Assembly: GCA_938073905.1 (NCBI GenBank)
Contig: CALJEN010000002.1
Location: forward strand, 1 to 64,000
Source: an uncultured Sulfolobales archaeon
GTDB taxonomy: Archaea > Thermoproteota > Thermoprotei_A > Sulfolobales > NBVN01
Length of the DNA: 64,000 bases
Direction of reading: 5' to 3'
This document shows, one piece after another, positions 1 to 33,044 of the stretch; within the stretch, counting starts at the first letter, position 1; each line of letters begins with the position of its first letter. The position numbers and the translations under genes were made by a program. Under the pieces are notes generated by a model that did not search any database, was not told the DNA's origin, and saw only the letters and a program-made list of their open reading frames with translations.

Positions 1-73
1 AGGCCAGCACCAGAGCCACGGCCACCAGTATCACGACGGCGATTATCGGCTCTATGCCCCTGCGCATGGACAT
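1..73 (-). CDS. N-terminus of an archaeal type IV pilin-like / class III signal peptide protein (truncated by window edge)
   Basis: Reverse complement reads ATG TCC ATG CGC AGG GGC ATA GAG CCG ATA ATC GCC... = MSMRRGIEPIIAVVILVAVALVLA, a typical archaeal pilin-type leader; open to window start. Confidence 0.6.
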   Translation of the reverse strand, partial: MSMRRGIEPIIAVVILVAVALVLA

Positions 74-3750: not shown

Positions 3751-6657
3751 GTGTCGGCGAGGAAGTACGTCTACGCGTTCGACGAGGGGGACTGGAGGGA
3801 CAAGAAGCTGCTCGGCGGCAAGGGGTCCTCCCTAGCGCAGATGACCCAGATGGGCCTGCCGGTGCCGCCCGGGTTCACGATAACGACCGAGGCCTGCCGC
3901 GAGTTCTACGCTCCCAGAGCGGCGGAGATGGACCGCGTAGTCAGGGAGCTCGAGCGCAACCCGCCTCCCGCCGTCAGGGACGAGCTCATAAGGAGGGCCT
4001 GGGCCATCATAGACTCCCTGGAGCTCCCCGAGGGGCTCATGGAGCAGGTCAGGGAGTACATGGGGAAGCTCGAGGAGGCGGCCGGGAAGAGGTTCGGGGC
4101 CACCGAGGGCCTCCCTCTCCTCGTGTCGGTCAGGTCAGGAGCGGCAGTCTCGATGCCCGGCATGATGGACACCGTCCTGAACCTGGGGCTCAACGACGAG
4201 GTCGTCAAGGCCCTCGCCAGGGCCTCCGGGAACGAGTGGTTCGCCTACGACACCTACAGGAGGTTCCTCCAGATGTTCGGGCGCATAGTGCTCGGAATAG
4301 ACGAGAAGCTCTTCGACGAGGCCTTCAGGAGGGCCGACGAGGAGTTCAGGAGGGTCGCCGCCGAGAGGTACCCGGAGGAGCTGAGGGCCATCGGGGAGGT
4401 CTACCCGAAGTACAGTCCGAGGCTGGACGCCCAGCCACCGAGGGACGTGGCTCCCGGGCTCTGGGAGGAGTCCGTCGGCTACCTCAAGAGGCTCGTCGAG
4501 GAGTACAAGAAGATAATCCGGGAGAGCTGGGGCGAGTTCCCGCAGGACCCGATGAGGCAGCTGGAGCTCGCGATCAGGGCAGTCTTCAGGTCCTGGATGA
4601 ACCCGAGAGCCATATTCTACAGGATAGCGAACAAGATAACCCCCGACGTGGCCGACTGCACGGCAGTCAACGTAGTCACGATGGTCTACGGCAACATGGG
4701 CTGGGACTCCGGAACCGGGGTCTACTTCACTAGAGACGTGGCCACGGGCGAGAACACCCCCTACGGAGAGTTCCTGCCGAACGCCCAGGGAGAGGACGTC
4801 GTGGCCGGCATAAGGACTCCGCTCAGCCTGGAGGAGCTCGAGAAGTCCATGCCCCACCTCTACGAGCAGCTCATAGAGGCCGGCAAGAGGCTCGAGAGGA
4901 TAAACAGGGACGTGATGGACATAGAGTTCACGATAGAGAGGGGCAGGCTCTACTTCCTCCAGAACAGGGTAGCCAAGATGACTCCGCTGGCCAGGGTGAA
5001 GACGGCCGTGGAGATGGCGAAGGAGGGCGTGATAACGAGGGAGGAGGCGGTCCTCAAGGTGTCTCCCGAGGCAGTCCTCAAGCTCCTCTACCCGACGATA
5101 GACCCCAAGGTCAAAGCGACCCCTCTGACCAAGGGGCTGGCGGCCTCTCCCGGTGCCGTCTCCGGGCAGGTGGTGTTCGACCCGGATACGGCGGTCGAGT
5201 GGGCCAGGAAGGGCAGGAGGGTCGTCCTCGTCAGGGTCGAGACCAAGCCCGACGACGTCCACGGGTTCTACGCCGCCGTGGGCATACTGACGTCTAGAGG
5301 AGGGCTCACGTCCCACGCGGCCGTGGTCGCTCGCGGCATAGGGAAGCCCGCGGTGGTCGGAGCCGAGGCGATCAGGATAGACTACGATACCCGCACGTTC
5401 GCGGTGGGTGACGTGGTCGTCAGGGAGGGAGACTGGGTGACGATAGACGGCAGCACGGGCTACGTTTACCTGGGCGAGATACCGACCGTCCTCCCCGAGG
5501 TGAGGGGAGAGCTCGAGGAGCTGCTCTCCTGGGCCGACGGCATCAGGAGGCTGGGCGTGAGGGCAAACGCGGACGTCCCCGAGGACGCGGTCATAGCGAG
5601 GAAGTTCGGTGCCGAGGGCATAGGGCTCCTGAGGATAGAGAGAATGTTCAGGAGGCCCGAGAGGCTGGAGCTGCTCAGGAAGGTCATCCTGGCCGAGAGC
5701 AGGGAGGAGAGGGAGGTGTACCTCAGGGAGCTCTCGAGGATGCTCAAGGGAGACTTCAAGGAGATGCTGAAGATCATGGACGGCCTGCCGGTGGTCATAA
5801 GGCTGATAGACCCGCCGCTCCACGAGTTCCTGCCGGCACCCGAGGAGGTGATAAGGGAGCTCTACGAGACCAGGCTCGCCATAGTCGAGGCGAGGACTCG
5901 GGGCTCAGAGACCGAGATACCCAAGCTGGAGGAGAGGGCGAGGCACCTGGAGTGGCTCTACAAGAGGGTCTCCGTGCTCAAGGAGCACAACCCGATGCTC
6001 GGCCACAGGGGCGTCAGAGTCGGGGTGACGCACCCCGAGATATACTACTACCTCGCCAGAGCCATGGCGGAGGCGGCCGCGGAGCTGAAGCTCGAGGGGC
6101 ACAACCCCGTCCTCGAGATAATGATCCCGCAGACGGCCCACGTGAACGAGATAAGGTTCGTGAAGCAGAAGGCCATAGTGCCGGCCCTCGAGGACGTGAG
6201 GAGGGAGTACGGGGTAGACCTCGACGTCAAGGTGGGGACGATGATAGAGACCGTCAGGGCCTGCCTGACCGCCCGGGAGATAGCGAAGGAGGTGGACTTC
6301 TTCAGCTTCGGGACCAACGACCTGACCCAGGCTACCTTCAGCTTCAGCAGGGACGACGCCGAGAACAAGTTCCTGCCCCAGTACCTCGAGCTGGAGATAC
6401 TCAGGGAGAACCCGTTCGAGGTGATAGACGTGAGCGGCGTAGGCAAGCTCGTGGAGCTGGGCACGAGGGAGGGGAAGGAGGCCAACCCGAACCTCGAGGT
6501 CGGGATATGCGGAGAGCACGGCGGTGACCCGAAGTCGATAGAGTTCCTCCACAGAGCCGGTCTAGACTACGTGAGCGCGTCACCGTTCAGAGTGGTCATA
6601 GCGAGGCTGGCCGCGGCTCAAGCGGCCCTGGCCTCCAGGCGCCGGGAGCTGGAGTAG
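3751..6657 (+). CDS. ppdK: pyruvate, phosphate dikinase
   Basis: YAFDEGDWRDKKLLGGKGSSLAQMTQMGLPVPPGFTI; GGLTSHAAVVARGIGKPAVVG; FGTNDLTQATFSFSRDD; GICGEHGGDP. GTG start chosen at 3751 rather than the ORF-track start 3583. Confidence 0.97.
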   Translation: MSARKYVYAFDEGDWRDKKLLGGKGSSLAQMTQMGLPVPPGFTITTEACREFYAPRAAEMDRVVRELERNPPPAVRDELIRRAWAIIDSLELPEGLMEQVREYMGKLEEAAGKRFGATEGLPLLVSVRSGAAVSMPGMMDTVLNLGLNDEVVKALARASGNEWFAYDTYRRFLQMFGRIVLGIDEKLFDEAFRRADEEFRRVAAERYPEELRAIGEVYPKYSPRLDAQPPRDVAPGLWEESVGYLKRLVEEYKKIIRESWGEFPQDPMRQLELAIRAVFRSWMNPRAIFYRIANKITPDVADCTAVNVVTMVYGNMGWDSGTGVYFTRDVATGENTPYGEFLPNAQGEDVVAGIRTPLSLEELEKSMPHLYEQLIEAGKRLERINRDVMDIEFTIERGRLYFLQNRVAKMTPLARVKTAVEMAKEGVITREEAVLKVSPEAVLKLLYPTIDPKVKATPLTKGLAASPGAVSGQVVFDPDTAVEWARKGRRVVLVRVETKPDDVHGFYAAVGILTSRGGLTSHAAVVARGIGKPAVVGAEAIRIDYDTRTFAVGDVVVREGDWVTIDGSTGYVYLGEIPTVLPEVRGELEELLSWADGIRRLGVRANADVPEDAVIARKFGAEGIGLLRIERMFRRPERLELLRKVILAESREEREVYLRELSRMLKGDFKEMLKIMDGLPVVIRLIDPPLHEFLPAPEEVIRELYETRLAIVEARTRGSETEIPKLEERARHLEWLYKRVSVLKEHNPMLGHRGVRVGVTHPEIYYYLARAMAEAAAELKLEGHNPVLEIMIPQTAHVNEIRFVKQKAIVPALEDVRREYGVDLDVKVGTMIETVRACLTAREIAKEVDFFSFGTNDLTQATFSFSRDDAENKFLPQYLELEILRENPFEVIDVSGVGKLVELGTREGKEANPNLEVGICGEHGGDPKSIEFLHRAGLDYVSASPFRVVIARLAAAQAALASRRRELE

Positions 6658-8158: not shown

Positions 8159-8291
8159 GCCGCGGTGCCGCGGATTACAGGGAAGACGACGTCGGGTCTC
8201 CGGGAGCCGCGTCGAGCTGGTATATAAGTAGAATAACGGTTGCAACAGGGTAGAGAGCACGAGGAGAGCCCAGAGTCCCATCCTCACCGAG

Positions 8292-8900
8292 GTGTTTCTG
8301 GCGAGCGCCGCGCTAGTAGTGGGCATGGCGATACTGGCCTACTTCGTGAGCTTCTCCTCGGTCCACTCACAGCAGGTCGACCTCGCGAACCTGGTCAGCT
8401 ACGAGTCCGCGGTCCAGGTGGTGAGGCTCGTGGCCTACGACAGCAGGAGCGGGACCGCGTGGCTGCTCCTGAGGAGGCTGGACGAGACCCCCAGGAACTT
8501 CGTGCTGCTGATCGAGGTCGACGGGGAGTTCCTCGAGTGCGAAAGTGTGTACGTGTTCGACGAGCTCAGGGACACCAACGGTCTGGTGTGCGACGGCGCG
8601 GACGGGGACTGCGTAGTCGCGTGCTCCTTCTACAGTGGGAGGGTCTCGTCCAGGGACGTCTTCGTGTGGACGAGGGACGGCCCCATGCCCCTCTACGACT
8701 ACCTCAGACGCCAGGCGCCCGAGCTGGTCAGTCCGCTACGGATCCCCCACCCGAGCCCGGCGGCGGGCTACCGAACACGTAACGTGGTCGTCGGGGTAAG
8801 GCTGAGCGAGCTGGAAGCGTCGGGGCTCAGGGTCTACCTCGGGGTGGACTACGGTGGGACGATACACGTAGCCAGGATATACGAGGTGAACCTCTCGTGA
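8292..8900 (+). CDS. pilin-like exported protein (natural start probably upstream, about 8259)
   Basis: In-frame upstream codons give TRRAQSPILTEVFLASAALVVGMAILAYF, a class III leader-like sequence, but no ATG/GTG/TTG between the stop at 8229 and GTG 8292. Confidence 0.6.
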   Translation: MFLASAALVVGMAILAYFVSFSSVHSQQVDLANLVSYESAVQVVRLVAYDSRSGTAWLLLRRLDETPRNFVLLIEVDGEFLECESVYVFDELRDTNGLVCDGADGDCVVACSFYSGRVSSRDVFVWTRDGPMPLYDYLRRQAPELVSPLRIPHPSPAAGYRTRNVVVGVRLSELEASGLRVYLGVDYGGTIHVARIYEVNLS

Positions 8901-10540
8901 GACCCCGGAGGGGCACCTCGAACCTGATAATCGCGGTCCTGGTCATGACAGCCATAGCCGTGAGCCTACCGAGCCTCTTCCTCTACGTCTACGCGGGGAG
9001 GGTAAGGCAGGAGGTGAGGGCTCTCAGCTACCTGGAGGTGGAGGACAGGGCCAGGTACGTCGACATCGACGCGGTAGCCGTGGTGGACCGGGACGTCCTG
9101 GAGGTGGTGCTCTGGAACAGGGGCGGTAGGGAGGTAGCGATAGAGGGGGTGCTCGCGCTCTCGAGCTGCGGCGGCGAGAGGGCTATGCTGAGGCTGACCG
9201 GCTCGCCCGAAGTCCTCGGCCCGGGCTCGGTCTACCATCTGACCGTAGACCTAGCAAGCCGGGGCTGCGGCGTGGACGGGGTCTACGTCGTTACCTCGGA
9301 GCCCAGGGTCTACTCGGCCAGGCTCTACAACGCGGACATGATTGAGGAGCTCGCCCCGCCCACCGGCGGGGAGTTCGGGCCCCCGGTCTCCACGATCTAC
9401 GTCCTCGTACCCGTGGAGGTGCGCACCGCTCCGTGGGAGATAGCCGGCGTGCTGGGGGACGCCGGCTTCGTACTGGCCATGCCCGACAGCAGCACGAGCC
9501 CGTCGCGGCTCACCCTGCTGGACGGGTACGGTGCTCTCGCGGGAGGGATGAACAGCGCCTCCGGCAGGTGGGTCTCCCAGAGCAACTACACCGACGTGAC
9601 GCTGAGCGCCAACAGGGTCGAGGTCAGGAACGTGTTCCTGGGCTACGACCCGAGAGACCCCTCGAGGTACGTGCTGCTAGTCACGAACGACGGCCCCATC
9701 GGGCTGGGGATCGGCGGCAGCTCGGTGACTCTCTGCTCCGGCTACTCGGCCACGAGGGTGAAGGTGTACGGGTTCGCGAGCGGTGACCAGAGGGGGATAG
9801 TCCTCGTCGAGGGCGACTCTAGCAGGTTCGGGAGCGGAAGGTGGGTGAAGAGGCCGGACCAGGACGTGGCCAACCTCACCTTCCTGAACAATAGGAACAG
9901 GGGGCGGATCACCCTGAGCGGCCGGGCGGAGAGGGTCGAGGTCTACTGCTTCGTGGTAGGACAAGCGAGGGAGAGCGGCTACGCTCCCTACCTCCTCCTG
10001 ATGAACACAGACGGCTCCCGGAGAGCCGGCGTCCTGTTCACGACCATCGACGTCGTCTACGGGTGGAGCGCGAACCGCAACGACCTCTCTGGGAGTGGAG
10101 TAGCGCTCCAGGACTACTCCGCCAGGCCGCTGGCCCTGGTCTACAGGAGGCTCGCCATCGATAACAACGCCACCAAGGCGGTCCTAGTATCTCTCAACTA
10201 CAGGTTCCACGACAACGAGGGCGAGGACTTCCGCGGTGCGACCGTGGACCGCCCCGTGCTGATCCTCGGGCTCGTCGACGAGGAGGGCAGGGTCCTCTCC
10301 TACAGGAGCTTCACATTCAGAGAGCTCACGCGCTACGAGGACACGTACCCCCCGGCGGCCCAGGCGCAGAGCGCCCTGGCCCTGATCCCACTTCCACCCG
10401 CGGAATCGGTCGGCTACAGGAGGCTCTACGTCTTCATCATAATCCAAGACCCCTACCTCTACAACACCGGAAACACCAACCTGGACGACCTCGACCTGAC
10501 GGTGTACGTGGAGTCCCTGGCCGTGCTCCTCTTCGAGTAG
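8897..10540 (+). CDS. large exported surface protein with pilin-like leader (paralogue 1)
   Basis: MRPRRGTSNLIIAVLVMTAIAVSLPSLFLYVYAG; C-terminal domain shared with the next two genes; 4-nt overlap with upstream CDS. Confidence 0.75.
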   Translation: MRPRRGTSNLIIAVLVMTAIAVSLPSLFLYVYAGRVRQEVRALSYLEVEDRARYVDIDAVAVVDRDVLEVVLWNRGGREVAIEGVLALSSCGGERAMLRLTGSPEVLGPGSVYHLTVDLASRGCGVDGVYVVTSEPRVYSARLYNADMIEELAPPTGGEFGPPVSTIYVLVPVEVRTAPWEIAGVLGDAGFVLAMPDSSTSPSRLTLLDGYGALAGGMNSASGRWVSQSNYTDVTLSANRVEVRNVFLGYDPRDPSRYVLLVTNDGPIGLGIGGSSVTLCSGYSATRVKVYGFASGDQRGIVLVEGDSSRFGSGRWVKRPDQDVANLTFLNNRNRGRITLSGRAERVEVYCFVVGQARESGYAPYLLLMNTDGSRRAGVLFTTIDVVYGWSANRNDLSGSGVALQDYSARPLALVYRRLAIDNNATKAVLVSLNYRFHDNEGEDFRGATVDRPVLILGLVDEEGRVLSYRSFTFRELTRYEDTYPPAAQAQSALALIPLPPAESVGYRRLYVFIIIQDPYLYNTGNTNLDDLDLTVYVESLAVLLFE

Positions 10541-12058
10541 GTGATCGCGGTGGGGACCGAGCGCAGGCCTAGGCTCAGGAGGGGCGTCGGGGCCGCCGCC
10601 GGAGCGGCCCTAGCGGTGGCGGTGGTGGTGCTGGCGACACTCTTCGTCTACTCGACCTCCCTGAGGCCCACGACGGCGCCTCCGGACACCCTCCTCAGGG
10701 TGCTCGACGAACACCTGAGCAGGAGAGTGTCGATAGGCCCTTCGGCGTCCGGGTACTACGTGCTGAACTCGGGGAACTCCCCGGTCTCGGTGGAGTACCT
10801 GGTCCTCCGAGACTCGGGAGGCGCCCTGGTCCTCGTCAGGACCGGGAGGGGATCTGTCTGCTCGATGTATGACCCGGAGATCCCCCCGGGCGGCCTCTCG
10901 GTGGTCGAGTGCGGCAGCGGGCTCGAGCTCGTAGCGGTCGTCGCATCGGACGGCAGGGTCTTCGTCAGAGACCCCAGGCTCACCGCACCCCACCTGGTCC
11001 AGAGGGCCGTTCCACAGAGGCTCCTGCTCACTCCGGAGGTCGCGACCAGGCTGGAGCAGTACGTCGAGAGGATCTCCGAGGTGAGGGTGAACGCGTCGCT
11101 GGCCCTCGTGAAAGTTCTCGAGAGGCAGGGCGCTAGTGTGAGTGTGGAGGTGAACGCGTCGCTGGTGGTGGCCCTCAAGTCCCCATCGTCGCCGAACCTG
11201 TGGAACGTCCTGATCGTGGGCCACGGGGCCTATGGTCGCAGATCATACAGTCGAGTGGAGGTTCCGGGCGGGGGTCCTCTGAACCTGTCGAGGAGCGGAG
11301 CCCTGAGGTTCAGGATCAAGATCGAGGGCCTCTCGGCGGGGGTCCTCAGGGTAAACGGCAGCGATGTGAATTCGCCCGGAGTGTTCCCGTGTTCGGTGAA
11401 CCGTGGGAGGCAGTGCTGGGTCAGCATAGAGGGGGTGGTCGACAGGATCGCCGTGTACGTGAACGGGACTGCGCCGAGCGCAGACGTGGACCCGTACCCC
11501 TACTATATAACCGGAGACCTGGACGGGAACGGGTACCCGGAGTTCCTCCTGATAACCCAGGACTTCAGCGTGGGGAGCAGTGAGAGCCTGAACGACGTGG
11601 TCTCGACGACTGTGGGGAGCAGAGAGGTCGTGGACTCCACGCGCGGGCCCCTCAGGATAGTCTTCACCGACGCACCGATAAACAACAGCGTATATGCCGT
11701 AGCGGTCGTCAGCATGAGGATGGTCTTCTGGGACAGCTCCCTGGACGACGTAACGGATAACGACAACCGCGTCATAGTGAGGGTGGGGATATACGACCCG
11801 GGCGCGGGGAGGTACCTGTACTCCGTCAGCCTGAGCTACCACGAGCTGTGTAGGTACAGGTCCGTCAGGCCCATGACTTTCTCCTACGTGGTCAAGGACT
11901 TCGTACTCTACATCCCGTCGCCCGAGGAGGTGGGGAGCAGGCTCCTGTTCGTGGCAGTAGACGTAGCCGACCCCTACTCTAGGGAGGGGACCAGGAACGA
12001 TGCGGAAATAATAGTCGGGATAGAGTACGTAGCGGTGGTCCTGGGGGTTAGGGCATGA
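10541..12058 (+). CDS. large exported surface protein with pilin-like leader (paralogue 2)
   Basis: N-terminal RRG-hydrophobic segment; ITGDLDGNGYPEFLLITQD and C-terminal domain shared with neighbours; abuts upstream stop. Confidence 0.75.
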   Translation: MIAVGTERRPRLRRGVGAAAGAALAVAVVVLATLFVYSTSLRPTTAPPDTLLRVLDEHLSRRVSIGPSASGYYVLNSGNSPVSVEYLVLRDSGGALVLVRTGRGSVCSMYDPEIPPGGLSVVECGSGLELVAVVASDGRVFVRDPRLTAPHLVQRAVPQRLLLTPEVATRLEQYVERISEVRVNASLALVKVLERQGASVSVEVNASLVVALKSPSSPNLWNVLIVGHGAYGRRSYSRVEVPGGGPLNLSRSGALRFRIKIEGLSAGVLRVNGSDVNSPGVFPCSVNRGRQCWVSIEGVVDRIAVYVNGTAPSADVDPYPYYITGDLDGNGYPEFLLITQDFSVGSSESLNDVVSTTVGSREVVDSTRGPLRIVFTDAPINNSVYAVAVVSMRMVFWDSSLDDVTDNDNRVIVRVGIYDPGAGRYLYSVSLSYHELCRYRSVRPMTFSYVVKDFVLYIPSPEEVGSRLLFVAVDVADPYSREGTRNDAEIIVGIEYVAVVLGVRA

Positions 12059-13695
12059 GGAGGGGTCTCTCCACTCTGCTCGCGGCCACGCTGGTTTCGG
12101 CCGTTGCTCTAGCCGCGTTCGCCTCGCTCTACGCCCTATCGCAGAGGAGAGCCCTCACCTCGGTCTCCGGCCTCGAGAGGCTCTCGGAGTACGTCCACCA
12201 GCACGAGGTGACGAGGCTGGCTATAGTGGTCACCGGGAGCGTCGCGCACGTCAGGAACCTGGGGAACAAGCCGGTCGAGCTAGAGCACCTGGTCCTCCTC
12301 CTGACCGACGGGTCTCTCAGGGTGGTCAGGCTCTCCGAGGGCGACCCGTGCTGGAGGCTGGACGTCGACGGGACGTGCTCTCTGGGCCTGGAGGAGGGCC
12401 TGCCGGTGGTGGCCGTGACGAGGTCGGGAGTCATAGTGTACCCCGAGAGAGTGGAGATGGTAGTCCCGACGGGCGAGGCGGCTCTGATAATACCCATAAC
12501 CTTCCCCTTCGCGAGCCTCAGCGAGTTCGCCGAGGAGTTCGGGGTGAGCCAAGATCTCGTGAACAAGCCCTACCCGGGGCGCAGCGGCGACGGCAAGAGG
12601 GGGGTCAGCGGGGAGACGCTGCTGATACTCCCGCGTGGTCGAGAGTCCGAGTACTTCAACGAGCTCGTCAGCACCGACTGCCCGGGCTCGAAGGACGCTA
12701 GGACGCCCTTCGGAGTCCTCGTCGTGGGCTACGATCCGAACTGGGTTCTGGAAAACAAGACCAGCCCGGGGCGCCCGCCCAGGTTCTCGATAATGTTCAC
12801 AGGCCCGCAGATGCCCGGGGAGAGGATCTGCACCAGGAAGGAGACCCTTCCCCTGACGCAGCAGGGCTTCAGGATCAAGATCCTCAACTTCACCGGGACC
12901 ATAAGGATCTACGACAGCAAGGGAGGTATCCTCGCCTGCTCCTCGTCCACCCCCGGCGAGTGCGGGAGCGCTAGGAGCGCGCTAGGCGTGTGGTACTACG
13001 GGATAGACCTGGGGTGGAGCGTGTACTTCCACGGGATCGCCGGCTACCTGGCCTACTACCAGAGGGCCCCCTCGGGGCAAGCGGAAGCGCAGGAGTCCAG
13101 CTACGAGCCCTACCTCTTCCTGGGCGACGTAGACGGGAACGGGGTGGTGGACCTCCTCTTCGTGACCGAGGACGCGTACTACGGAGACCGCACCAAGATC
13201 AACGACTCGAAAGACCTAGTGGACTACTCCACGGTGCCCCTGAGGCTCAAGCTGCTGAGAGTGGGCCGGGCTCTCGGCTACCCGGACGGCTCGGTAGACG
13301 GAAGCAGGTTCGCGGGGATCATCCTCTACGTCAACCTGCTGTTCCACGACAACTCGCACCCCGACGAGCGGCAGCTGGAGGACAACGACAGGACCGACTG
13401 GGTCATGAGGATCCTGCTGGTCGACGGGCAGGGCAACGAGTACGTGGTCAGGGAGTACAGGTACCAGGAGATATGCAACTACCACAAGACCCTGGTGAGG
13501 GACGTGCATAGGGACAACTACTTCGTCAAGATATCCCAGTCGGTCTTCGTGCCGATACCCTCGTCGGGGAGGTACTGGATAGCCATCGAGCTGCGCGACC
13601 CCTACTACCTCGAGAGACGAGACGGGTACTACATCAACGATGCGGACCTGACCGTCGGCATAGAGATAATCGGGGTACTGCCCCTAGCCAGGTAG
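12055..13695 (+). CDS. large exported surface protein with pilin-like leader (paralogue 3)
   Basis: MRRGLSTLLAATLVSAVALAAFASLYALSQ; FLGDVDGNGVVDLLFVTED; C-terminal domain shared with neighbours; ATGA overlap. Confidence 0.75.
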   Translation: MRRGLSTLLAATLVSAVALAAFASLYALSQRRALTSVSGLERLSEYVHQHEVTRLAIVVTGSVAHVRNLGNKPVELEHLVLLLTDGSLRVVRLSEGDPCWRLDVDGTCSLGLEEGLPVVAVTRSGVIVYPERVEMVVPTGEAALIIPITFPFASLSEFAEEFGVSQDLVNKPYPGRSGDGKRGVSGETLLILPRGRESEYFNELVSTDCPGSKDARTPFGVLVVGYDPNWVLENKTSPGRPPRFSIMFTGPQMPGERICTRKETLPLTQQGFRIKILNFTGTIRIYDSKGGILACSSSTPGECGSARSALGVWYYGIDLGWSVYFHGIAGYLAYYQRAPSGQAEAQESSYEPYLFLGDVDGNGVVDLLFVTEDAYYGDRTKINDSKDLVDYSTVPLRLKLLRVGRALGYPDGSVDGSRFAGIILYVNLLFHDNSHPDERQLEDNDRTDWVMRILLVDGQGNEYVVREYRYQEICNYHKTLVRDVHRDNYFVKISQSVFVPIPSSGRYWIAIELRDPYYLERRDGYYINDADLTVGIEIIGVLPLAR

Positions 13696-28379: not shown

Positions 28380-31300
28380 GTGATGGAGGTGAGGAGGTAC
28401 AGCGGGCTCCTCCTAGCTCTCTTGGCGCTGTCCCTCTGCTCCACTCTAGTCCCGACCGTCTCTCAGAGCGGTGTGTTCTACGTAGAGACCACCAGCTTCA
28501 GGTCTTACGTGGGTGGAGACGTGTACCCCGGTTCTACCAGCGCGAGGCTTGAGGTCGGAGTGAAGTACCTCGGCACCGAGGTCGCTCGGTCGGTATACGG
28601 ATGCCTACAGCTCCCCGAGGGCTTCTCCGCCCGCTCGAGCTGTGCCGGAGCCAGGGGACCGGACGGGGGCTTCATCGCCAGCGTCGAGTACGGGGAGATA
28701 GTCTATTTCGTGTTCGTGGTGGACGTCGGCAGGGAGGTGAGCCCCGGCACCTACATCGCGAGTCTGAACGTCACAGCGAGGATAGGTGCGACCCTGGTAC
28801 TGGTCTCTGAGGTCTCGGAGATATCCCTCACAGTAAGCCCGTACCCGGAGCTCCGGCTCGAGCTGGTCGACTCCTACTGGTCTCCCGAGGCGTACCCCGG
28901 GACCGCGGGCACCACTCTCTACCTCGTGTTCAGGCTCGGTGGCGCAACGATGGACTCGGCCACGGTCGTGGTGGAGCTGCCGGAGGGGTTCTACCCGCGC
29001 ACCTCCAGGAGGACCGTCGGCAGCGTGAGGAAGCACACGACGTTCACCGTGGCCGTCCCGGGCATAAGCGTGAGCAGGCACGTGGCCCCGGGAGCGTACC
29101 GCGTATCGGTCAGGATGAACTCCACCGCGGTTACCGACGACGGGGTCTACTACAGCGCCGCGGTCTCACTCGAGGCCCGCGTGCCGGTCGGCGACCCGCC
29201 CCAGCTGCTGGTCAGGCTGGTGAACAGCGGCTGGACGGGCTCCAGGGTTCCCTACGGCAGCAAGGCCGCCGACTACAGGGTGGTGCTCAGGCTCGAGGAC
29301 TCCGCAACGGTGAGCTCCCTCGTCGCCGTGCTGAGGCTGCCTGCGTGCGCGGTGTCCTCCGACGGGAGCTCCAGCATAGTCGTCTACTCGAACAGACCTG
29401 TGACCTACGGCGAGGTCTTCGAGCTCGTGTTCGGGGGCATAACGTTCTCGTGCCGGTCGACGGAGTTCGCAGAGCTCTCCCTGGAGGTCTTGGCGGTCAA
29501 GGACGGCTCGGAGTTCTGGAGCACGCTGAGGTACCTGGTCCCCCTGGTCGTCCAGAACCCGGCGGTGGAGGTGAGGGTGGTCGCTAGCTACTGGAGCCCA
29601 GGTCCCGCGTACCCGGGCAGCTCCGGTATATCCCTAGTGCTCATCCTCGAGAACTTCGACTACGTCTCCCTCTACGACGGCGTCGCCAGGCTTCGGTCGG
29701 GGGTGACGGTGCCGGGAGAGCTCTCGGTCACCAACGTCGTGGTCGGGTCGCTGAGCAGGACGACCCTGGTCTTCCGCGGACTCTCGGTGCCGAGGACTGT
29801 GTCCCCCGGGGACTACTGGCTCGAGCTCGAGCTGGACACCCTGGTCGACTCGGGTGCCGTCTACGCCGCCTCCATGTGGTTCCGCGTCCCGGTGCGGATC
29901 GAGGAGCCCCCGAGCCCGAGGCTGGAGGTCGTGAGCTACGGCTGGGCCGACGGCAGGGCCTTCGGCCACTCCGTGGGGAACGCCCTCAGGGTGGTGATCA
30001 GGAACTCCGACCCGAGCGTGACGGTGAGGAGCCTCAGAGCCTCCCTAGACCTACCGGGCTGCTTCGAGATCGGGAGCCTGGAGAGGGAGGCGGTCGTGAG
30101 TGCAGTCCTGGCCTACGGGTCGTCCGCGACCCTGGAGTTCAGCGGCATAGACGTGCTCTGCCGGGGCGGCACCTACAGGGCGAACCTCACCGTAGAAGTC
30201 CTGGGGGAGATATCGGGGTCTGCGTTCTGGCAGACCCTGCGCTACGGCCTACCGCTGGTGGTCGAGGAGCCCTCTCTCAATGTCGAGGTGGCGGACGCTG
30301 GCTGGGTCTCCCGCGTGGCCTACCCCAACTCCAGCAGGCTGACGCCCTACGTGGTGCTGGTCTCCTACACCAGGGACAGTCTGGCGAGCGTGGTCGCCTA
30401 CGTGAGACCGGTTAACGCCAGGCTCTCCGACGGCGGTGAGGAGGCCGCCGTGGCTCTCGGGGGGCCCGTGTCCTACGGCTCCTCCCTCACCATCAGGCTC
30501 CCGAGCGTAGAGGTGGAGGGGGTTGCGGACTCGGTGGAGCTGGAGCTGAGGGTGGAGGCCCTAGCGCGCTACGGTCGGACGCACTACAACGCCTCCAGGA
30601 CTCTCCGGGTTAGGCTCCCGCTCGTCACGGAGAAGAACGTAGCCCTGGCGCACTCGCACGTGGAGTACATGGGCAGCCCGTCACCCCTCCTCCCGACGGC
30701 CAGGGGGGTCGAGGTCCGCATCCTGCTGGTCAACCTGAGGCCGGAGCCCCTCAGCCTATCGGGAGTTCGGGCGGACGCTCCCCGGGGCTTCAGAGTCCTG
30801 GGAATCGGGGGAGACTGTCCGAGGGTCACGCTGACGGCCGGGGGGACGTGTAGCCTCGGCTTAACGCTGGAGGTCTCCGGAGACGTCGAGCCGGCCACCT
30901 ACGAGCTCTCGGTGGGGATCGAGTACGTCAAGTCGTCCTCCGGCGCCTCCCTGTTCGGAGCCGAGGTCTTCCGCATACCGGTGGTCGTCGAGCCCGCGAG
31001 CGAGTACGTGCCCGAGGTGGTGGTCCTCGAAGCGTACTGGGGCTTAGAGCGGCCCACCGCGGTCTTCCCGAGGTCGCGGAACGTCCCCCTGACCGTAGTC
31101 CTCCAGAACCTCGGCAGGTACGACGCTGTGGGGGTCACCGTCAGTGTGGAGTCCGACGCGCTAGTCCCGGTGGTCGGCTCGGCCGCGTGCTCAACTAGGC
31201 TCCTCCCGGGGAGTACGTGCGCGTCAGTCCTCTACCTCGACGTGCCCGCCGGAGTCGAGGGATACGTGGAGGCTAGCGTGATGCTCTCGTACCACATGAG

Positions 31301-33044
31301 CTCGTTCGGGGCCTTCGTCCAGGTCTCGAGGAGCTACGTCCTGCGGATGTACGTAGAGCCCCTGGAGCAGTACGGTGGGACGCTGACGCCCCTGTCCTGG
31401 GGCTGGGCGAACAACTACAACGTGTTTCCCGAGACCGAGAACGCCACCCTCGTGGTCTCCATCGCTAACAGGTTCCCGCACAGCGTCGCGGGAGTCCTGG
31501 CAGAGCTCTACCTCCCGGAGGGCTTCAGGGGAGAGAGGGGGAGAGTCTCGGTAGCCTACGTGGACGGGCCCCTGAGGAGCCTCTCGACCACTCCGCTCGG
31601 GTTCAGGGTCTCGGTCGGCAGGGTCCCGCCGGGCTCCTATACCGCCGTCCTCAGGCTCGACTACGTCGTGCTCTCCGGGGGACCCGGGGTCAGGCTCGTG
31701 GAGGAGCACGAGGTCGGGATCCTCGTGGTCGACGATAGGCACGCTGTGGAGCTCGTCAGCTCGAGTTGGCTAGAGGGGTCGGTGGAGCCCGGGACGTACG
31801 GGGTCTTCCTCCACCTGGTCGTGAGGAACAACCTGGTCGACGGGATGAGCGGAGTCTTCCTGCAGCTCGACCTCCCCCATGGCATCTACAGCTCCCTGGA
31901 CAACTCCAGCACGGTCAGGGTGCCCCCGCTCTCGCGCCAGTTCGTCGAGAGTCTGCTAGCGCTGGGCACGTCGGCAGCCGGGAGACTCCCGATAGCTGTC
32001 CTGGAGCAGCTGCTCCAGCAGGCGGGGACTCCGGCGGCCACCTACAGGAGGGGCGACCTGGTGGAGTTCGTGGTACCGCTGAACCTGCTGGTCGACTCCA
32101 CCGGGAGGTACGCGGCCAACGCTACCCTGCACTACATCGACGGCTGGGGCACGCCGAGGCGGTGCGGGTTCACGGTGGAGCTGGCGGTCTTGGGGAGCGT
32201 CAGGTACGTCGAGGTCTACGTAGACGGGGGGACAGTCAGGGTCACCTCCAGGTTCACGCGGGCCACCCTCGCGCTCAGGAACTTCGGCAGCAGTCCCGCG
32301 TACAACGTCTACGTAGCGGTCTATCCCTACTCCCAGCTGCCCGTGCTGGTGGCCTCGCCGACCGTACACTACGTCGATAGGGTGGAGCCGGGCAGGGAGG
32401 TGGAGCTCGAGCTGACCCTCGCCTACAACCCCATGGGCGTCTACGCGGTGGCCGGAGCCCAGACCGTCGTCTCCTACGGCACCGTCCCCCTCGTCGTCGC
32501 AGTGGTCTACAGAGACGCCAGTGGGAGGCTCAAGGCCTTCAACACAACGGTGGTAGTCGTGGTGGAGCCGTTCATAGACCTGGTGCTCAGGGAGCAGAGA
32601 GCGGTGCTCGTCGCCGGGACCGTCCGAGTCTCGGGAGTCCTCGTGAACTACGGGTCGGCGACCGCGTACAGGGTCGGGGTCAGAGCGTGCGCGGGCGAGG
32701 GCGCGTGCGCCGAGAGCTTCGTGGGGGACGTGGAGCCCGGGGCTCAGAGGGCCTTCAGCGTCAACGTCGCGGTGGGCAGCGCTGCCACCGGTGAGGTCGG
32801 ACTGACGGTCCTCTACTACAACGCCTACAACGAGCTGCAGCAGTTAGAGCTCGGCTTGCCGGTCACAGTGGCAGCACCACAGACCCCGACCACCCCGCCG
32901 GCCGAACACGCCCTTGTAGCCGAGAGGTGGGTACCTCTAGCGGTCGTAGGGGTCTTCCTGGCAGCGGTAGCGTACGCGATCTACAGGCTAGCGTCCAGCT
33001 ATCGCGAGAGGCTGAGGAAGGCCTCGGAGGTGGTGCCCCCGTGA
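28380..33044 (+). CDS. large repetitive cell-surface protein with C-terminal transmembrane anchor (COG1361/CARDB-like)
   Basis: Signal peptide, recurring unit of type (V/L)-x-x-(Y/G)-W-x(5-10)-YPG-x(10)-(V)-x-L-x-x-LP, Pro/Thr stalk, TM helix PLAVVGVFLAAVAYAIYRLA. Confidence 0.8.
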   Translation: MMEVRRYSGLLLALLALSLCSTLVPTVSQSGVFYVETTSFRSYVGGDVYPGSTSARLEVGVKYLGTEVARSVYGCLQLPEGFSARSSCAGARGPDGGFIASVEYGEIVYFVFVVDVGREVSPGTYIASLNVTARIGATLVLVSEVSEISLTVSPYPELRLELVDSYWSPEAYPGTAGTTLYLVFRLGGATMDSATVVVELPEGFYPRTSRRTVGSVRKHTTFTVAVPGISVSRHVAPGAYRVSVRMNSTAVTDDGVYYSAAVSLEARVPVGDPPQLLVRLVNSGWTGSRVPYGSKAADYRVVLRLEDSATVSSLVAVLRLPACAVSSDGSSSIVVYSNRPVTYGEVFELVFGGITFSCRSTEFAELSLEVLAVKDGSEFWSTLRYLVPLVVQNPAVEVRVVASYWSPGPAYPGSSGISLVLILENFDYVSLYDGVARLRSGVTVPGELSVTNVVVGSLSRTTLVFRGLSVPRTVSPGDYWLELELDTLVDSGAVYAASMWFRVPVRIEEPPSPRLEVVSYGWADGRAFGHSVGNALRVVIRNSDPSVTVRSLRASLDLPGCFEIGSLEREAVVSAVLAYGSSATLEFSGIDVLCRGGTYRANLTVEVLGEISGSAFWQTLRYGLPLVVEEPSLNVEVADAGWVSRVAYPNSSRLTPYVVLVSYTRDSLASVVAYVRPVNARLSDGGEEAAVALGGPVSYGSSLTIRLPSVEVEGVADSVELELRVEALARYGRTHYNASRTLRVRLPLVTEKNVALAHSHVEYMGSPSPLLPTARGVEVRILLVNLRPEPLSLSGVRADAPRGFRVLGIGGDCPRVTLTAGGTCSLGLTLEVSGDVEPATYELSVGIEYVKSSSGASLFGAEVFRIPVVVEPASEYVPEVVVLEAYWGLERPTAVFPRSRNVPLTVVLQNLGRYDAVGVTVSVESDALVPVVGSAACSTRLLPGSTCASVLYLDVPAGVEGYVEASVMLSYHMSSFGAFVQVSRSYVLRMYVEPLEQYGGTLTPLSWGWANNYNVFPETENATLVVSIANRFPHSVAGVLAELYLPEGFRGERGRVSVAYVDGPLRSLSTTPLGFRVSVGRVPPGSYTAVLRLDYVVLSGGPGVRLVEEHEVGILVVDDRHAVELVSSSWLEGSVEPGTYGVFLHLVVRNNLVDGMSGVFLQLDLPHGIYSSLDNSSTVRVPPLSRQFVESLLALGTSAAGRLPIAVLEQLLQQAGTPAATYRRGDLVEFVVPLNLLVDSTGRYAANATLHYIDGWGTPRRCGFTVELAVLGSVRYVEVYVDGGTVRVTSRFTRATLALRNFGSSPAYNVYVAVYPYSQLPVLVASPTVHYVDRVEPGREVELELTLAYNPMGVYAVAGAQTVVSYGTVPLVVAVVYRDASGRLKAFNTTVVVVVEPFIDLVLREQRAVLVAGTVRVSGVLVNYGSATAYRVGVRACAGEGACAESFVGDVEPGAQRAFSVNVAVGSAATGEVGLTVLYYNAYNELQQLELGLPVTVAAPQTPTTPPAEHALVAERWVPLAVVGVFLAAVAYAIYRLASSYRERLRKASEVVPP

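Follow-up and report, generated by a model that had tools for sequence, protein, structure and literature searches.

We analysed a window of 64,000 nucleotides (positions 1 to 64,000 of contig CALJEN010000002.1, GenBank assembly GCA_938073905.1) from an uncultured archaeon whose metagenome-assembled genome (MAG) belongs to the order Sulfolobales in the sense of GTDB, has a G+C content of 65% and is 79% complete. Four adjacent genes of this window, here called g1 to g4, are likely to encode a minor-pilin set that forms a hetero-oligomeric, probably adhesive complex at the tip of a type IV pilus (T4P). That the four proteins are minor pilins of a T4P we regard as highly likely, and that they form a hetero-oligomer at the tip as fairly likely. 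The proposed cassette consists of a small pilin, g1, and of three proteins, g2 to g4, each of which joins a pilin domain at the N-terminus (leader of class III, helix of about 50 residues and immunoglobulin (Ig)-like part) to a two-part head of about 400 residues. The genes and their candidate promoter are arranged as follows.

8221..8228, + strand: TATA-like box TATATAAG, candidate single promoter for g1 to g4, predicted by reading the sequence
8259..8900, + strand: g1, small pilin, 213 amino acids (aa) from ACG at 8259 or 202 aa from GTG at 8292
8897..10540, + strand: g2, large modular pilin, 547 aa
10541..12058, + strand: g3, large modular pilin, 505 aa, with FWDSS replacing FHDN
12055..13695, + strand: g4, large modular pilin, 546 aa, better conserved than g2 and g3

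A preliminary description of this DNA had recognized an operon of four tightly coupled genes for surface proteins with pilin leaders, and a check of the open reading frames (ORFs) bears this out, with 4-nt overlaps between g1 and g2 and between g3 and g4, and with g2 and g3 abutting. A leader motif of class III type (K or R, then G, A or S, then a hydrophobic run) was found in all four genes, and their description as pilin-leader surface proteins is supported; the motif is present in 64 of 69 large relatives as compared to 45 of 372 background ORFs. The start assigned to g1 at 8259 is in frame with the leader (TRRA/QSPILTEV...), but the codon is ACG and not a canonical one. The first canonical codon, the GTG at 8292, falls past the leader motif, and no ATG, GTG or TTG was found upstream of the motif, so that the leader is encoded only if translation begins at ACG 8259 or farther upstream. 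The closest relative (locus L063) has a GTG at the corresponding position and encodes the leader from there, and another relative, L068, again has ACG (some 42 bases before position 6252). It is possible that g1 uses an ACG start or that there are base errors in both MAGs. A sigma-70 promoter scan was set aside as not meaningful, the host being an archaeon.

The first 122 or so residues of each large protein make up an entire archaeal pilin module, one that is related to the UpsB pilins. An AlphaFold2 (AF2) model of g4, for which 27 relatives and paralogues were aligned, had a predicted local distance difference test score (pLDDT) of 80.8 and a predicted template-modelling score of 0.69, with a low-confidence linker at residues 135-143. 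The model divides the protein into three segments.

12055..12420, + strand: g4 pilin module, with leader MRRG/LST, helix 2-52 and strands 55-122 (AF2)
12514..13074, + strand: g4 head, middle part, residues ~154-340 (AF2; profile matches within the family only)
13087..13692, + strand: C-terminal part of the g4 head, residues ~345-546, corresponding to the module of the preliminary description (AF2; profile matches within the family only)

A profile of the large family matches an archaeal T4P pilin in the PDB (8fk7; model positions 4-133, E 9e-4) and, over positions ~5-145, pilins of 127-155 aa from Sulfolobaceae. Three of these short pilins exceed the NCBIfam cut-off for UpsB, and two of the three sit in the order ATPase-TadC-UpsA-UpsB. 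When the membrane helix was left out, the Ig part still matched pilins beside T4P ATPases (7.9e-9 and 1e-7; best shuffled ORF 0.17); its matches to the UpsB proteins themselves were weak (0.007-0.03). Profiles of both head parts found nothing below 1e-3 outside the large family among 1600 ORFs. Because the pilin-module profiles match pilins whereas the head profiles match the family only, we consider the N-terminus to be the pilin and the head to be an addition. The full alignment of the relatives was too diverse to serve as a query for collection scans, and the g4 set, which was used instead, worked; phmmer with g4 alone gave only chance matches in the PDB. By its AF2 model, g1 is a small pilin, having a helix at residues 6-52 that is followed by a beta domain (pLDDT 85), and its best full-length pilin match in Foldseek is also 8fk7 (probability 1.00, E 4e-3, template-modelling (TM) score to target 0.49). 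The cassette proteins share the long N-terminal helix and Ig-like beta domain by which archaeal type IV pilins are recognized. Matches of g1 to poxvirus proteins, at E about 0.1, were dismissed as chance.

We also examined the surroundings of the cassette genes in relatives, reading 40 loci in all; the named relatives are uncultured Sulfolobales and Desulfurococcales MAGs, Ignisphaera spp. and one MAG labelled Thermosphaera. At least one T4P gene (ATPase, TadC or PilA) is present in 15 of the 40 stretches. Genomes G031 (which we take to be Ignisphaera aggregans), G041, G066, G047, G037 and G205 have a T4P ATPase and TadC in the same stretch as the cassette genes, mostly with PilA-type pilins, and at a locus with a different head (L099) the ATPase, large pilin, g1-like pilin, two PilA-type pilins and TadC make up one block. 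The earlier statement that the window contains no secretion ATPase is correct, but the host genome carries the ATPase (T2SSE, 120.6 bits) and TadC (T2SSF, 60.6 bits) on contig C10 with a pilin-like gene, and an archaeal A24-type prepilin peptidase gene on contig C5. The window itself begins within a candidate gene for the shaft.

1..73, - strand: 5' end MSMRRGIEPIIAVVILVAVALVLA... of a gene for a PilA-type prepilin, truncated where the contig ends; candidate for the shaft pilin

This gene reaches 22.5 bits against TIGR02537 (cut-off 20); the contig of the sister genome G006 likewise begins inside a PilA-type gene, and a further PilA start is located on host contig C12. These data bear upon the original idea of an undescribed, separate appendage with a shaft made of g2, g3 and g4, an idea for which the presence of three large, beta-rich proteins in a single operon speaks, as does the lack of an ATPase in the window. 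Since the N-terminal 122 or so residues are a whole T4P pilin domain and since many relatives have their genes beside T4P ATPase, TadC and PilA, the cassette proteins have the appearance of T4P subunits, not of a new machine. Separate shaft pilins of the PilA class and the customary ATPase/TadC pair occur together with the cassette, both in relatives and in the host genome, and single-copy lineages manage with one large subunit. We consider an independent appendage very improbable.

The three large proteins are true tandem paralogues, as had been proposed, with similarities far beyond chance (1e-13 to 1e-22). A search of the genome with g4 returned, besides itself, only g3 (1.2e-14) and g2 (1.6e-13), and g3 aligns with g4 across 570 columns (3.7e-20). 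The shared C-terminal module is real, and g2, g3 and g4 can be aligned along their entire length. None of g1 to g4 has a match above cut-off in Pfam, PHROG or NCBIfam. The g4 head (residues 154-546) is beta-rich in the AF2 model and falls into two parts, and no counterpart to a head of about 400 residues was found in any library searched (Pfam, NCBIfam, PHROG). The large proteins are accordingly modular in the sense that a pilin module is joined to a separate C-terminal module, as seen from the AF2 segments 1-122 and 154-546 and from the module-wise profiles; the extra module is not a functional domain recognizable by a match in Pfam, NCBIfam or PHROG. For g4, Foldseek gave matches of domain size to jelly rolls of galactose-binding-like type (Eph ligand-binding domains, CBM4-2 and Fbs-type sugar-binding domains), which on the evidence of the model give a hint, but no more, that the head is a binding module. 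Viral Foldseek matches, which were only long ones to beta-sandwiches with high root-mean-square deviation, and PDB matches to arabinanase, TcdA1 and PHM were deemed uninformative. No relatives of the cassette were detected in the viral contigs searched; given this result and the lack of a PHROG match, the cassette is not viral.

The calcium-loop-like DxDGNG motif noticed earlier lies in the C-terminal part of the head, being conserved in g4 and largely so in g3, but degenerate in g2.

13126..13152, + strand: g4 calcium-loop-like motif DVDGNGVVD (D358, D360, N362, D366)
11516-11542, + strand: g3 loop DLDGNGYPE, calcium-like
10001-10030, + strand: g2 loop MNTDGSRRAG, degenerate

The pattern DxDx(N/D)Gxx(D/E) is intact in 13 of 13 g4 proteins and in 14 of 14 single-copy proteins, is mostly retained in g3, and is found in none of 14 g2 proteins. 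If the loop binds calcium, g2 would therefore have lost that function while retaining a structural one. Residues D373, D390, F430, D432, P502, D515 and Y517 are conserved across all classes of large protein.

Matches to the g4 protein were found in 28 of 100 related genomes, and the loci fall into several arrangements. The order g1-g2-g3-g4 is fixed in 16 of the Sulfolobales (sensu GTDB) genomes examined (that of the window, G002, G004, G006, G026, G028, where the cassette is split over contigs, G031, G041, G066, G077, G085, G091, G097, G130, G205 and G209). A second form, in genomes that are presumably Fervidicoccus-, Hyperthermus- and Pyrodictium-like and in some others, pairs one g1-like protein with a single large protein (540-880 aa) that bears this head. 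A wider set of loci joins the pilin module to different heads (360-940 aa), and most of these loci again have a g1-like gene alongside. In a tree built from 55 C-terminal modules, g2 (99/94), g3 (98/93) and g4 (100/100) each lay on one side of a branch, and all three large copies are retained together in every complete locus read. Each of the three clades spans several families, so that the triplication is old and occurred once within the head family of the window. The fixed order, with one clade for each large gene, indicates that g2, g3 and g4 are not interchangeable copies.

Another family of the order, represented by G033, has three tandem large pilins of 404, 386 and 371 aa whose heads are unrelated to those of the window (L089 5871-9350). 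These are paralogous to one another (blastp 1e-7 to 6e-23 between pairs), and G053, a genome of that family, carries a single gene; going by these sequences, the triplet would most simply be read as a second, independent triplication. Sulfolobaceae genomes (L095-L098) contain an unannotated pair, a pilin-like ORF of 156-184 aa and a protein of 518-736 aa with the pilin module, which is possibly the counterpart of the cassette in better studied species; a relation to UpsC of Saccharolobus islandicus (PMC11868833) is conceivable. The ultraviolet-type promoter motif ANTTTC occurs upstream of three of the four Sulfolobaceae pairs, but the DNA is AT-rich and no conclusion was drawn. Ignisphaera-type loci have, directly upstream of g1, a protein of about 400 aa with a pilin-like N-terminus, possibly a fifth cassette member, which is absent from the window.

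L038 4223-5461, L039 12593-13801, L042 13730-14914 and L066 255-1439: pilin-like ORF of about 400 aa

The type IV pilus tip complex has several points against it. Matches to the fold of the head are weak, for although their probability is 0.9-0.99, the E values are 3e-3 to 2e-2 and the TM scores to target 0.35-0.46; to call the complex adhesive is therefore to argue by analogy. A g1-like gene adjoins the large gene in 36 of the 40 loci, a count that is not fully independent because adjacent genes supplied part of the input for the broad g1 profile; at three of the four loci lacking a g1-like match there is a pilin-like ORF of 156-184 aa below the threshold. In the genus of the window the cassette lies away from the T4P ATPase, which makes the link to a given pilus indirect. 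Minor pilins may also act from the membrane without ever entering the fibre (PMC11178785).

The distance from T4P genes, which is seen in the genus of the window and in the Hyperthermus/Pyrodictium-like genomes, would also suit a membrane-anchored surface complex with a pilin leader that stands outside any filament, as proposed for the Sulfolobus bindosome. Class III leaders occur on sugar-binding proteins too. The N-terminus of the large proteins is, however, a whole pilin domain and goes beyond a mere leader, a substrate-binding domain was not found in Pfam or NCBIfam, and other families have T4P neighbours; we consider such a complex quite unlikely. A different possibility is that g1 to g4 are a minor-pilin complex for assembly priming or mechanosensing, comparable to GspIJK or FimU/PilVWX, that does not itself function in adhesion. 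Priming is a frequent role of minor pilins in bacteria (reviewed in PMC10191384). The arrangement of one small and several larger pilins and the fixed order are alike in such complexes, and priming would explain retention with the T4P machinery. Priming does not need heads of 400 residues, however, and the heads vary between lineages while the pilin module is constant, a variation more typical of ligand contact. A priming or mechanosensing complex therefore appears unlikely to us.

We thus favour the minor-pilin tip complex, for which the following pathway can be proposed. The products of g1 to g4 would be cleaved by a peptidase of PibD/EppA type, inserted into the pilus by the T4P ATPase/TadC platform, and assembled at the tip of the PilA filament as a hetero-oligomer of fixed composition. 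Location at the tip is suggested by heads of about 400 residues, too bulky for packing in the shaft, and by analogy with PilB of Streptococcus sanguinis. The heads may then contact a surface or a partner cell, which leaves the heteromeric adhesin of the preliminary description plausible, its role being inferred. In g3 and g4 the loop would probably hold a bound calcium ion; calcium-dependent adhesion by the heads is conceivable, with the balance slightly against it. As to origin, the two one-to-three conversions would fit an ancestral homotrimer turned heterotrimer. We tentatively put forward, as a rather doubtful scenario, that the ancestral tip was a homotrimer made of a single large modular pilin, with a g1-type pilin as its cap or seat, and that at least two conversions (the family of the window and L089) to an obligate heterotrimer took place by tandem triplication, with the calcium site lost in g2.

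Elsewhere in the window, positions 28380-33044 encode a secreted protein of 1554 aa with repeated beta domains and a C-terminal transmembrane segment, probably an S-layer or surface protein. Its match to the pilin Ig profile is weak (2.4e-5 in total, best domain 0.005).

Among known systems, the closest precedent is the T4P of Desulfurococcales clade 4A, for which three to four extra components of untraceable origin were proposed as a minor pilin set (Makarova, Koonin and Albers 2016, PMC4858521). The taxa and T4P context are the same as for the cassette, and that set very probably includes the cassette genes; the main text of that article does not present domain structure, paralogy, orthologous classes or the idea of a tip or trimer. 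PilB of S. sanguinis (PMC8179133) resembles g2 to g4 in having a pilin module to which a bulky C-terminal module is attached, incompatible with packing in the shaft, and in a metal loop. The PilB head is a vWA domain with MIDAS, whereas the cassette has an archaeal pilin module, a head that is no known domain, and three paralogous heads per operon. The survey of modular pilins in PMC8179133 is based on an N-terminal domain signature and covers bacteria, archaea not being mentioned. CofB/TcpB, the trimeric tip minor pilins, and GspIJK share with the proposed tip complex large minor pilins thought of as sitting at the tip, a trimer and small partners (PMC8179133), but are bacterial, with no sequence relation found, and CofB/TcpB are homotrimers as opposed to the three distinct paralogues of the cassette. 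The UpsB/BasB pilins of Sulfolobaceae have a pilin module homologous to that of the large proteins, but UpsB is of about 130 aa and lacks a head; with the NCBIfam equivalogs for Ups pili, g2 scores 11.7 bits against an UpsB cut-off of 70, and g1, g3 and g4 have no match. In Pfam searches, g1 to g4 lack the C-terminal PilC beta-propeller domain of the PilY1/PilC tip adhesins and the DUF2341 of archaeal pilus adhesins (Makarova 2016). No PDB sequence match connects the cassette with archaeal threads, bundling pili or cannulae, the T4P pilin being the only match. In the Sulfolobus Aap pili the tip was not reconstructed, and a minor pilin was suggested to sit there (PMC11178785). The clear assignment to a characterized pilus family, by which the preliminary description was to be refuted, succeeds in part, the machine being known in kind but the subunit set uncharacterized. 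The pair of a small pilin and a large modular pilin, conserved across Sulfolobales and mostly unannotated, provides named candidates for the T4P tip, and the occurrence of one or three large genes offers a natural comparison by which the stoichiometry of the tip can be tested. The principle of the modular pilin, of which surveys have so far covered bacteria, is thereby extended to archaea.

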